From a virus: a DNA stretch of 40,812 bases. The position numbers and the translations under genes were made by a program. Positions 14,731 through 34,637 of the stretch are shown here, piece after piece. The stretch spans positions 1 through 40,812 of the IMG/VR virus record IMGVR_UViG_3300044626_000729. One strand, 5' to 3'. The first letter of the stretch is position 1. Each line of letters begins with the position of its first letter. The notes below the pieces were generated by a model. It saw only the letters and a program-made list of their open reading frames with translations, was not told where the DNA came from and ran no database searches.

Positions 14731-15198
14731 TTATAAATCAAAAGATGGTAATATAACTTCTTTGCAATACTCTATCGTTGGCATCTTTCTATTTTCTTTT
14801 TGGTATCCTTCAAGACGCTCAACAAAATTGTTAAGTAGGTGGTCTCTTTCTAAAATAGCTTTCTCCAATCTCTCTGCTAAAGATATTGCTTCCAAATGTA
14901 TATCATCATTTGACTTCATTATTATTTTTCTATTCTCTAATAAGAATTTCTTCTTACATATATTGTATTTTCTTTTAAATGTCGAATCAAATTCTAATAG
15001 GTTCTCTATGTTGTTTACATAATGAATAATAGTTGCGTGGTCCTTATCTATTGTATTGCCAATTTGTTCGTAGGCATATCCTAAATCTCTAAGTATTTTA
15101 GCGTATACTTTACGACCATCTACAGCACTTCTTTTCCTTCTTTTTGATTCTATATCTATTGAGAATATTTCGTTTACTATTTGTTTTAATGCTTCCAT
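14731..15198 (-). CDS. DnaA domain IV-like DNA-binding protein
   Basis: 155 residues. Residues 19-60 (RKRSAVDGRKVYAKILRDLGY, then EQIGNTIDKDHATIIHYV) reproduce the helix-turn-helix and the signature DHxTxxH of DnaA domain IV, which reads DHTTVMYA in E. coli. There is no AAA+ domain, so it is a stand-alone DNA binder. The C-terminal half is a charged coiled-coil-like helix. It may recognise DnaA-box-like sites in the phage or host origin; a second such protein is encoded at 24452-24754. Confidence 0.7.
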   Translation of the reverse strand: MEALKQIVNEIFSIDIESKRRKRSAVDGRKVYAKILRDLGYAYEQIGNTIDKDHATIIHYVNNIENLLEFDSTFKRKYNICKKKFLLENRKIIMKSNDDIHLEAISLAERLEKAILERDHLLNNFVERLEGYQKENRKMPTIEYCKEVILPSFDL

Positions 15199-15202
15199 TT
15201 AA

Positions 15203-15445
15203 TTAAAGTGGTTTATATATTTCTGTTTTTAATCCGTGTTTTTCTAACTCTTCTATTCTAAAATCCTGTAGAGGAGAAGTCTTTCCATTTTGGGTCTTCA
15301 CTTCCACAAATAGAACATCTGAGTTTTTTGGTATAGCTATAAGGTCAGGTATACCCGGCTTATTTGTATTTATTAATTTTATTACATAATAACCTTCCTT
15401 TTCAAGTTCTTTTATTTTTTTGTTTTGAATTTTTGATTCTAACAT
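15203..15445 (-). CDS. VRR-NUC-type nuclease
   Basis: 80 residues from ATG 15445; a TTG nine bases upstream overlaps the homing endonuclease stop and is less likely. GIPDLIAIP, LFVEVKT, then SPLQDFRIEELEKHG give the G-x-PD, E-V-K and Q-(x)n signature of VRR-NUC, a PD-(D/E)XK branch found in phages and in structure-specific nucleases. The size fits the compact phage form. Its first 25 codons are far more A-rich than the rest, like the adjacent GIY-YIG gene, and a truncated copy of the same N-terminus lies on the other side of that gene. Confidence 0.75.
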   Translation of the reverse strand: MLESKIQNKKIKELEKEGYYVIKLINTNKPGIPDLIAIPKNSDVLFVEVKTQNGKTSPLQDFRIEELEKHGLKTEIYKPL

Positions 15446-15447
15446 AT

Positions 15448-16236
15448 TTAACAATAAATTAAATTAATATTATTTTTTAATCTTCCATTTAATTTTGATT
15501 TTAATGTTGATTGAGGAATATTATTATACAAAGCCGCCTCTTTTGTTCCTATATAAAAAACACCTGTTTGAGTATTTAATATTATTTTTGAAAAAATATT
15601 TTTTAAATTTTCTTTTTCGTTTTCAGACATTTTTTTATTAACACCATTTTTATTTCCTTTTTGAGATAAAGACATTTTATCTTTAGTTGTATCGGAATGT
15701 TTCTTACCAAACATCCCACTAATCTTTCCTGAATTTGATTTAGATATTTTTAATTTTGTTTCTTTAGAATGTACTTTTCCAATATTTGAAAGTGATATTT
15801 TTAATTTTGATTCTTCAGAATGTTTTTTATCACTCATAGCGCCTTTTCTTCCTTTCATTCGAATAGACATTTTTAATTTAGTATCTTCACTTACTAATCT
15901 TCCAATTGATTTTTTCCTTATTTTTTCCTTGGTATATTCTGAAAGATATCCGCTTTTATCATCTGTTTTAGTTAATTTTAAATTTAAACCTATTTCTAAA
16001 ACATTATAATGTTCTTGAAAAAATCTTTCTCTATTATTTAATAATTCAATACAGCATTCTTCTATAATTTCAAATATATGATTTTCTACTCCATACTTTA
16101 AAAAAGAATTATAGAGTTTAATCTGACTTACACAACTTCTTAATTTTTTATATTGAGTAAATCTTTTTTCAATATTTATTGATTGACCAATATAAATCTT
16201 ATTATTTGGAGAAGTAATTTTATAAATTCCTATCAT
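15448..16236 (-). CDS. GIY-YIG homing endonuclease with NUMOD modules
   Basis: 262 residues. GIY is at residues 3-5 and YIG at 15-17, with the expected Arg at 25 (IEKRF). Residues 100-190 contain several NUMOD3-like repeats (KLKISLSNIGK, KLKISKSNSGK, DKMSLSQKGN), and the C-terminus (NTQTGVFYIGTKEAA, then STLKSKLNGR) is a NUMOD1-like DNA-binding HTH. The gene is extremely AT-rich compared with its neighbours, as is usual for recently arrived homing genes. It lies between an intact VRR-NUC gene (two bases downstream) and a truncated duplicate of that gene's start (upstream). Confidence 0.9.
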   Translation of the reverse strand: MIGIYKITSPNNKIYIGQSINIEKRFTQYKKLRSCVSQIKLYNSFLKYGVENHIFEIIEECCIELLNNRERFFQEHYNVLEIGLNLKLTKTDDKSGYLSEYTKEKIRKKSIGRLVSEDTKLKMSIRMKGRKGAMSDKKHSEESKLKISLSNIGKVHSKETKLKISKSNSGKISGMFGKKHSDTTKDKMSLSQKGNKNGVNKKMSENEKENLKNIFSKIILNTQTGVFYIGTKEAALYNNIPQSTLKSKLNGRLKNNINLIYC

Positions 16237-16318
16237 ATAAAAAATTTAAATTAATAACATAGTACCCTTGAGCCTCAAGCTCTTTAATTTTTTTCGACTG
16301 TATGACGCTCTCTCTCAT
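16220..16318 (-). pseudogene. Displaced 5' end of a VRR-NUC gene
   Basis: A 32-codon reading frame starting MRESVIQSKKIKELE and continuing EAQGYYVINL. Residues 4-24 match residues 3-23 of the intact VRR-NUC protein (SKIQNKKIKELE, GYYVIKL) at about 16 of 21 positions, then similarity stops at the upstream edge of the homing endonuclease gene and the frame ends. The codons differ heavily from the intact copy and are richer in G+C, so this is a divergent allele, not a recent duplication. Most likely it is the resident gene's original start, stranded by the insertion. Confidence 0.65.
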
Positions 16319-16396: not shown

Positions 16397-16915
16397 TTAA
16401 GAAACAGCATCAAACACCGAAACAACCTGCACCCGACCAAAGTAAGTTTTAGGTTGCCACACTAATACATCTGACAAAAGAAACTTTTCCTGTGCCTTTT
16501 TGTATGTTCCTGTTGGATTTGCAGGGATAAACCAATGCTGAAAAATAATCCTTTTACTTGCTACTCTTGAAAGTTCTGCTAATAAATCGTGATTCCATTG
16601 GAAATTTCCGTTGTAAGGCGGGTCGCAAATTACTGTTTCAAATTCGTTATCCTTTACAAAGTCCTGCATTTTTGAGGCATCGCAAATTATGTCAGGATTA
16701 TTTTCAGCATCAGCATCTAATCGCACATCGCCAAGTAATGATTTACCACAGCAAACGTGCAATGTTTTACCAATAAACAATCCCTGCAAAACATCTTCAA
16801 TGCTATCATTCCAAAGTTTCTTTTGCACTCTGTAAATGTGGCTCGTTCCTGCCAACGGCACATTCCCTTTTGTCTTGTTAATTGCAGGTTGATTTTTGTA
16901 AGTTACACTTGCCAT
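16397..16915 (-). CDS. DPPY-type DNA methyltransferase-like protein
   Basis: 172 residues. Residues 52-80 (LHVCCGKSLLGDVRLDAD) have the shape of a SAM-binding motif I region, and DPPY at 98-101 (VICDPPYNGNF) is the catalytic motif IV of N6-adenine or N4-cytosine methyltransferases. No target-recognition domain is apparent and the protein is short, so it may be a minimal enzyme or methylate another substrate. The gene is clearly richer in G+C than its neighbours and is bounded by inverted repeats, which suggests a mobile cassette. Possible role: protection against host restriction, or against the phage's own nucleases. Confidence 0.65.
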   Translation of the reverse strand: MASVTYKNQPAINKTKGNVPLAGTSHIYRVQKKLWNDSIEDVLQGLFIGKTLHVCCGKSLLGDVRLDADAENNPDIICDASKMQDFVKDNEFETVICDPPYNGNFQWNHDLLAELSRVASKRIIFQHWFIPANPTGTYKKAQEKFLLSDVLVWQPKTYFGRVQVVSVFDAVS

Positions 16916-32888: not shown

Positions 32889-32980
32889 ACGTCATAGACT
32901 TACGAAGTAAGTTTATATGTATATCCAACCAATGACCAAACTTTTTTATTTTTAGTGTAGGTATTGAAATTTTTTTATAC

Positions 32981-32988
32981 TATATTTG
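32981..32988 (+). promoter_or_regulatory. -7 element of the chaperonin promoter
   Basis: TATATTTG, a TAnnTTTG match 26 bases before ATG 33015; TTG at 32964-32966 lies 14 bases upstream, shorter than usual. Its position shows that the in-frame TTG at 32964 is part of the promoter and not the GroEL start. Confidence 0.6.
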
Positions 32989-33014
32989 CACATATCAATT
33001 TTAAATACAATCAA

Positions 33015-34637
33015 ATGACACAAAACGAAGGTTATTCTCCAAAAGATTTACATTTTGAGGATAAAGGAAGAAAAAAATTAGCTAATGGTGTAGCCAAGAT
33101 GGCTAAGTCTGTAAAGAGTACATTAGGTCCGGGAGGTAATACTGTACTTATTGAGAGTCCAAACCACACTCACGGGATTACTGTGACTAAAGATGGTGTA
33201 ACAGTTGCTAAGAGTATTGATTTGTTTGACCCGGTTGAGAACCTTGCGGTTAAGATGATGAAGGAGGCTGCTGAGAGAACTGCTACTAATGCGGGAGATG
33301 GAACGACTACTGCGATTGTTTTAACTGAAGCTTTAGTATTGGGTGGATTAGCTCAGATAAAAGAGAACCACAACAGAACTGAGGTTTTAAGAGCTTTAGT
33401 GGAAATGAGTGATAAGGTGGTGGATAACTTAAGACGTAAGAGTAAGAGGTTAACCACTTCAATGTTGGTTGATGTTGCGAGTATATCGGCAAATAACGAT
33501 AGAGAGACAGGTCGTATTATCTCAGAGGTTTATAAAGATGTGGGTAAGACGGGTATTGTAACTGTTGAGAGAAGCCAAACAGATGAGACTTACGCTGAGA
33601 CTACTAAGGGATTGAAGTTTGATAGAGGTTATTTAAGCTCTATGTTCATCAATGATCAAAAGAAAGACGAGTGTATCCTTGAGGATGTTATGGTATTGGT
33701 AGCAGATATGGAGATTGCAAACATTTTGCAGATAGAGAACATATTGAAACCTGTTATATCAGAAGGAAAGAAGTTATTAATTATCTCTCCGTGTAATGCC
33801 AATGTTGTAAATACATTAGCGGCTAACTCGGTTAAGGGTAATTTGAAAGTATGTGCTGTTGCTCCTCCAAGTTTCGGTTACAAGCAACACGAATTGATGC
33901 ACGATATTGCAATTAGCGTAGGTGCAACTTACTTCAGTGAGAAAACAGGGGACGATTTAAGTATAATTAACTTCGGAGATTTAGGTCACGCAGCAAGAGT
34001 TATAGTTAGTAAAGATAAGACTGTGATTATTAAGTCAGCTTTGCGTTCTGACGAAAATGTAATCCAAGAAAGAGTAGACCAATTGTGGGAAGCACATAAG
34101 AATGCCACTAAAAAGGGAGACAAAGACTTCTTATTGGAGCGTATTGCTTCACTTACAGGTGGAATTGGTGTGATTTACGTTGGTGGACAGACAGATTTGG
34201 AGCAGAAAGAGTTATATGACAGGGTTGATGACGCTGTTTGTGCAGTTCGTTCAGCTTTAGAGGAAGGTATTCTTCCGGGAGCGGGTAAAGCATTGCTTGA
34301 AGAGAGTGCTTTGTTGACTATTTCCGAAGAGGTAAGTGAAGAAAGACATATTGCGTTGAATGTTTTAAGCCAAGCGCTTATGGCTCCGTTCTTACAGATA
34401 CTTGCTAACGCGGGATTGAAAGCGGCTGACATTTATCCTGATGGTATTGAGCCGGGTCAAGGATATAATTTGAAGACTGCACAGATGGGAGACTTGATTA
34501 AGATGGGTGTTATTGACCCATTGAAAGTTACAAGGTCAGCATTGCAGAATGCAGTATCGGTAGCTGTAACTATCTTGAGTACTAACGCGATAATCACAAT
34601 GGCTCGTAGTTATGAGCAAACTGAAGAGGTTTTGTAG
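33015..34637 (+). CDS. groEL: Phage-encoded chaperonin GroEL (Hsp60)
   Basis: 540 residues from ATG 33015 (MTQNEGYSPKDLHFEDKG). ATP-site features are intact: TLGPGG at 36-41, TKDG with Asp60, GDGTTT at 95-100, and VDDAV plus EEGILPGAG in the C-terminal equatorial domain, where host proteins have DALHATRAAVEEGV and GGG. The usual Gly-Gly-Met tail is missing; it ends QTEEVL. Known: GroEL folds proteins in an ATP-driven double ring with GroES; a few phages encode their own. Here a GroES gene follows in the same operon, so a phage-specific folding machine for virion proteins is likely. Confidence 0.95.
   Translation: MTQNEGYSPKDLHFEDKGRKKLANGVAKMAKSVKSTLGPGGNTVLIESPNHTHGITVTKDGVTVAKSIDLFDPVENLAVKMMKEAAERTATNAGDGTTTAIVLTEALVLGGLAQIKENHNRTEVLRALVEMSDKVVDNLRRKSKRLTTSMLVDVASISANNDRETGRIISEVYKDVGKTGIVTVERSQTDETYAETTKGLKFDRGYLSSMFINDQKKDECILEDVMVLVADMEIANILQIENILKPVISEGKKLLIISPCNANVVNTLAANSVKGNLKVCAVAPPSFGYKQHELMHDIAISVGATYFSEKTGDDLSIINFGDLGHAARVIVSKDKTVIIKSALRSDENVIQERVDQLWEAHKNATKKGDKDFLLERIASLTGGIGVIYVGGQTDLEQKELYDRVDDAVCAVRSALEEGILPGAGKALLEESALLTISEEVSEERHIALNVLSQALMAPFLQILANAGLKAADIYPDGIEPGQGYNLKTAQMGDLIKMGVIDPLKVTRSALQNAVSVAVTILSTNAIITMARSYEQTEEVL

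Follow-up and report, generated by a model that had tools for sequence, protein, structure and literature searches.

The free-standing Seg endonucleases of phage T4 are intergenic and leave their neighbours whole, and are not known to strand a gene fragment. In fungal mitochondria, mobile ORFs (mORFs) encoding endonucleases have been described at atp6 of Allomyces and at atp6, atp9, cox2 and nad3 of Glomus, with the inserted copy of the gene end sharing 64-81% DNA identity (and more in protein) with the end of a sister species, and the native copy matching that sister closely (PMC3630166). Here we describe a locus on the minus strand of the window (the whole virus record of 40.8 kb analysed here) in which a homing endonuclease gene (HEG) of the GIY-YIG/NUMOD3 type lies between a stranded start and an intact copy of a VRR-NUC gene. 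As in the mORFs, an endonuclease ORF has brought a foreign terminus that is fused to its target, and the native terminus is stranded beyond the ORF (PMC3630166); Allomyces atp6, named as a precedent in the preliminary description, indeed represents the same terminus replacement. However, the fungal cases are replacements of the 3' end in mitochondrial DNA, mostly by LAGLIDADG ORFs (PMC3630166), whereas the window has a 5'-end replacement in a phage. The phage cassettes reported below come from dsDNA phages, carry GIY-YIG/NUMOD3 enzymes, involve mainly the 5' end (the 3' end in two or three cases, L106 and L354 among them) and often have the HEG stop overlapping the new start. We conclude that these phage elements work like fungal mORFs, at both gene ends and with GIY-YIG enzymes, with cleavage and homing being inferred.

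An intron-free phage GIY-YIG gene, for which co-conversion of flanks is expected, is shared with the T4 Seg endonucleases and with intronless homing in general (PMC2988022). By contrast with the Seg genes, the phage cassettes strand a gene fragment, and no terminal duplication was present in the T4-like and other named-phage loci tested. I-TevI of the T4 td intron has the same catalytic domain (matched here through PDB 1mk0) and thyA/td is targeted by both, but its gene is preserved by the self-splicing intron and that of the phage cassettes by the replacement end. In design only, combining a nuclease with a substitute for the gene that it cuts in a single selfish unit resembles the HomeR and Cleave-and-Rescue drives, which are synthetic, Cas9-based and animal, without common descent (PMC7968924, PMC7951863). 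No phage precedent for a terminus-replacing HEG was found in the open literature, subscription journals being mostly outside the scope. An earlier remark that no phage VRR-NUC case was known thus stands as far as that literature goes, but the case is no one-off, given its recurrence at other phage genes and at both ends.

Organisation of the VRR-NUC locus

Read 5' to 3' on the minus strand, a gene resembling DNA methyltransferases (16397..16915; PHROG DNA methyltransferase, E 1e-7) is followed by a 24-codon VRR-NUC fragment, the HEG and the intact VRR-NUC gene, an order that had been described before and that coordinates and Pfam matches confirmed. The fragment (16247..16318, minus strand) has its ATG at 16318 and encodes codons 1-24 of the stranded native 5' end, MRESVIQSKKIKELEAQGYYVINL, ending at 16247. 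It shares 18 of 24 residues and 46 of 72 bases with the start of the intact gene, about what the first estimate of some 16 in 21 residues had indicated. The BLOSUM62 score of this 24-residue match is 87, as compared with about 50 for the 99.9th percentile when flanks were swapped between HEG loci, so the likeness is not due to chance. Scanning viral contigs for relatives of VRR-NUC gave 80, of which the HEG-free alleles L002 and L006, the nearest to the window, match the fragment at 56 and 59 of 72 nucleotides, respectively. The 22 bases preceding the fragment ATG are identical to those preceding the intact VRR-NUC ATG of L002.

Downstream of codon 24 the fragment reading frame enters cassette DNA for 8 codons (NFLYDRNL*) and reaches a stop at 16220. 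This left end of the mobile cassette (16220..16246, minus strand) matches L007, a second phage contig among the 80 relatives, exactly from about position 16247 inward; the two are the same from TTAAATTTTTTATATGATAGG on, although the preceding fragments differ at 13 of 72 positions. The HEG itself (15448..16236, minus strand) encodes 262 amino acids at a GC content of 22%, and was identified by Pfam (GIY-YIG, E 2.7e-6; NUMOD3, 7e-19; both above cut-offs), by a PHROG match to homing endonuclease and by a phmmer match to the I-TevI catalytic domain 1mk0 (E 9e-6). Its GIY-YIG catalytic domain (PF01541) occupies residues 2-61 (16054..16233, minus strand), and two stretches pass for the NUMOD3 DNA-binding repeat (PF07460), the better one at residues 153-189 (15670..15780, minus strand). 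It is identical to the L007 HEG at 669 of 789 nucleotides (78% in protein).

The cassette-borne replacement of the VRR-NUC 5' end, codons 1 to about 31 (15353..15445, minus strand), begins 2 nucleotides past the HEG stop, and the native remainder follows at 15203..15352. Together they form an intact gene of 80 amino acids beginning MLESKIQNKKIKELEKEGYYVIKL (15203..15445, minus strand; Pfam VRR_NUC, 2e-10), taken as complete because HEG-free relatives encode 78-80 amino acids. Next to it on the 3' side is a gene with a DnaA-type HTH (14731..15198, minus strand; Pfam Bac_DnaA_C, 7e-9), a homologue of which occupies the same position in most relatives. GC content is 35% in the fragment, 17-18% in the new start and about 33% in the gene remainder (window, 32%). 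The A-rich start, put forward earlier as a sign of foreign origin, is thus present as described, but it is weak as proof because the HEG-free loci L008 and L051 show similar drops; the weight of the case rests on the alleles.

Empty, occupied and scar alleles

If a cassette had replaced the start of the gene, the fragment should be contiguous, and in frame, with the gene body in HEG-free relatives, as the preliminary description had predicted. L007 has the same layout as the window, HEG included, and L038 and L041 are its close HEG-free sisters, in which a fragment-type start continues in frame into an L007-type gene body; L002 and L006 likewise have a fragment-type start in frame with the gene body. 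Comparing L038 with L007, identity was 88.9% in the fragment, 63.9% in the new start, 96% in codons 31-80 and 95.5% downstream, a break supported at Fisher p 1e-8; the comparison places the right crossover near codon 31. The nearest relatives switch accordingly along the gene. In the window, codons 1-24 are nearest to L007 and L003 and codons 32-75 to L006 and L002, from which the native remainder derives its closest matches rather than from L007 or L003; L007 changes from L003 and the window at the start to L038 and L041 in the body. The new start resembles only the other cassette-derived starts (L007, L003 and the window). A cassette terminus fused in frame to a native gene body, with the native terminus on the far side of the ORF matching sister alleles, is the mORF arrangement, and the earlier proposal that a mobile gene brought a new 5' end and stranded the original is borne out at both L007/L038 and window/L006/L002. 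No second start was found upstream in HEG-free VRR-NUC loci among the 80, save in L003. Prophage relatives in the genome collection numbered only two, both distant (Prevotella and Bacteroides).

L003 lacks the HEG but has kept both an 11-codon native fragment and a replacement start. Its VRR-NUC start matches the L007 new end at 69 of 72 positions, as against only 66% (111/168) for the remainder. At L003:4961-5001, 7 nucleotides before the new ATG, ATGACGGAGCAACAGATACAGACCAAGAAAATT encodes MTEQQIQTKKI, the native start of the family cut after 11 codons; this fragment scored 53, as compared with 26 for the next family member and a maximum of 35 in 3000 shuffles. The GC content of the locus is 37.5%. 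The simplest reading is an apparent scar, in which the HEG would have been deleted and the replacement end retained. Given that reading of L003 as HEG loss, empty (L038/L041), occupied (L007) and scar alleles have all been sampled at one gene and site, a presence/absence polymorphism of the kind by which homing endonucleases are recognised, with only two cassettes and one scar being known for VRR-NUC. A helicase gene near the scar (L003:2660-4401) appears to bear an intein (C-terminal ...ILVHN/C before GAFPKPSNRAK).

The window and L007 differ in background. Their identity is 43% upstream, 82% in the fragment, 85% in the HEG, 88% in the new end (codons 1-26), 72% in the rest of the gene and 63% downstream. 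The new ends differ by 4 synonymous and 2 non-synonymous codons, which is what would be expected of a working protein end. Where cassettes are comparable, these alignments indicate that HEG and new end move together between phage backgrounds.

The preliminary description had called the new end recoded, and this part did not hold. Fragment and new start share 46 and 49 of 72 bases, close to the mean of 49.5 (sd 3.3) for family pairs of equal protein identity, that is, with 18 of 24 residues shared, and strong synonymous recoding was rejected. With no evidence of deliberate recoding, the new end appears to be a foreign homologous end. Because such divergence is ordinary for homologues, selection for cleavage immunity cannot be read from it.

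Recurrence at other phage genes

We compared the protein translations of 210 bases on either side of related GIY-YIG HEGs, in 148 clusters, using a score cut-off of 45. Counting both orientations, 23 flank matches scored at least 45, with 0.5 being expected from flanks swapped between loci. On the same strand, matches of at least 45 were found in 15/148 HEG clusters as compared with 6/650 control ORFs, 3 of the 6 being copies of HEGs. Since two of the three HEG scans were seeded with HEGs known to show the pattern, 15/148 is no population frequency; the unseeded first scan alone gave L147, L158, L159 and L106, with L145 and L137 being less clear. On this evidence related GIY-YIG genes occur in the same arrangement at a number of further phage genes, at 5' and 3' ends alike, the clear cases all being from metagenomic contigs.

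Five cases lie at an uncharacterised phage gene, here geneX, with the start M..KLPITRLSKFFS (L147, L253, L254 with a decaying fragment, L330 and L359), and further cases at the thymidylate synthase gene thyA (L258, L264, L256, L421 and L464/L465). Single cases were L158, L328 (polynucleotide kinase-like) and L159 (with a frameshifted new copy). Empty alleles were found for two of the other target genes. For the geneX locus L147, the near-empty alleles L166 and L167 share the DNA preceding the fragment and match the gene body at 272-277 of 300 bases. Among L264, L421 and L464, the thyA new ends show 88% mutual identity, as against 67-68% for the fragments, 52-66% for the gene bodies and 39-52% for the upstream DNA. 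In most thyA and geneX cassettes the HEG stop overlaps the new ATG by 8 nucleotides. Since the stop either overlaps the new start or, as in the window, sits 2 bases before it, the restored gene is likely, by inference, to be translated together with the HEG.

The replacement thyA ends of L264, L421 and L464 read ETRNGGT in place of the usual DRTGTGT, so that a conserved motif of thymidylate synthase is changed in sequence by the cassette. At L414 (1173-1517) and L417 (876-1517), thyA start fragments are fused in frame to unrelated non-HEG ORFs ending over an intact thyA start, and may represent other cargo in place of the HEG. The thyA locus L415 was set aside as a simple short direct repeat.

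The mirror arrangement at the 3' end was found in L106, where the native tail of a RuvC-like gene is stranded beyond the HEG and matches the downstream context of the HEG-free L244, and in L354. L137 is probably a 3'-end case in inverted orientation: the HEG (L137:3989-4699) is opposite in strand to its target, and a C-terminal segment, IGCGL..NW..YYKMLE, which we take to be macro-domain-like, is repeated on both sides. At L145 (3929-4618), zinc-finger-like GYTLLS repeats flank a GIY-YIG gene; they could be internal repeats of one HEG, and the locus was left out of the clear cases.

Terminal duplication was seen in none of 27 GIY-YIG HEG loci in named phage records (T4-like and others), the best-scoring being a tRNA array, a high-GC low-complexity match and one reverse-strand match. 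The query of a survey of HNH-type HEGs matched two loci only.

Cassette homing and its alternatives

We regard it as highly probable that a free-standing GIY-YIG HEG has inserted in the 5' end of VRR-NUC, travelling as a cassette with a diverged homologous start that keeps the target whole. The cassette structure, the three allele states, the co-transfer of HEG and new end and the recurrence at other genes are observed; the cleavage site, immunity and homing activity are inferred, the mechanism being derived from the anatomy of the cassette and from what is known of double-strand-break repair with free-standing phage HEGs (PMC2988022). The HEG would cut HEG-free alleles near codons 20-31, for which there are no activity data. 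In repair templated by the donor, the stranded fragment and the DNA preceding it would then serve as left homology arm and the gene body as right arm, so that what lies between them, the HEG and a new end of low homology, would be copied in as one. Insertion would strand the first 24 codons of the recipient upstream, and the cassette-borne start of about 31 codons would fuse in frame to the recipient gene body. The stranded fragment may thus be a working homology arm and not mere debris. Because the new end differs in DNA, the restored gene would probably be no substrate (a reasonable inference, also drawn in the preliminary description), repair via the restored gene that skips the HEG would be less likely, and deletion of the HEG by direct-repeat recombination would be reduced; these effects are inferred, and L003 indicates that deletion does happen despite the diverged end.

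Neutral co-conversion has to be weighed most seriously, although we hold it to be unlikely. An ordinary intergenic HEG upstream of a divergent VRR-NUC gene in the donor could, by an illegitimate left junction and homologous repair, have carried the donor 5' end along once, without that end being protective. The ordinary divergence of the new end is compatible with such an event, and flank co-conversion is normal for free-standing HEGs (PMC2988022). On such a view, however, there is no reason to expect stranded fragments at several unrelated genes and at both gene ends, nor the 8-nucleotide overlap in most thyA and geneX cassettes, nor that one new end should have passed repeatedly from background to background.

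GIY-YIG HEGs often reside in group I introns, and the HEG of the window matches I-TevI, so that a self-splicing intron or other RNA processing might join the fragment to the gene body, with the apparent new start being intronic. However, Rfam detected no group I intron or other RNA in the window region (E up to 5) and no intron in 13 cassette loci at the gathering threshold, which leaves no basis for splicing as the explanation. The new start, moreover, is a complete conserved homologous N-terminus in which synonymous codon differences between phages outnumber non-synonymous ones. We give this possibility very little weight, and still less to the idea that the gene start was duplicated in tandem around the HEG in a single genome and the copies then diverged. 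Two copies do flank the HEG as that would require, but the new ends of the window, L007 and L003 are 88-96% alike as against 64-68% to their own fragments, and each fragment is nearest to the background alleles of its own phage, so that the comparison of alleles refutes it. An assembly chimera of two related phages, conceivable given that every clear case is metagenomic, is scarcely credible when L007, from an independent metagenome, has the same left junction, HEG and order, the scar allele comes from a third metagenome, and the same design is present at several other genes.

The homing-cassette reading can be extended, with support that only slightly outweighs our doubt, to the proposal that phages carry widespread natural home-and-rescue drives, in which free-standing HEGs are directed at conserved codons close to one or other end of important genes and travel with a diverged, cleavage-immune substitute for that end, often translationally coupled, that may persist as immunity after HEG loss. 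Such cassettes represent a third route, beside introns and inteins, that lets a homing gene sit within a coding gene and leave it intact, and one repeated in environmental phages. They mosaic gene ends between unrelated phages, leading to misleading trees and gene calls, and a short orphan ORF in front of a HEG can be the stranded start of a gene. They also offer a natural model of how home-and-rescue gene drives meet resistance and are lost, one gene having been sampled in its empty, occupied and HEG-lost states.

Two loci in named phages touch on related arrangements. In the culturable crAss001 (L506, 1210-1782), a GIY-YIG gene and the large terminase gene, at its annotated start, overlap by 29 nucleotides; no duplicated end was found at this locus, which is a candidate for HEG-coupled translation. 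In phiAS4 (L492, 1-3132), the two halves of a split DNA polymerase are separated by a GIY-YIG gene and a small ORF that resembles polymerase; in contrast to the window, this gene is interrupted without duplication of an end. Elsewhere in the window, positions 32964-34637 hold an ORF of 557 amino acids that by eye resembles a phage GroEL-like chaperonin.
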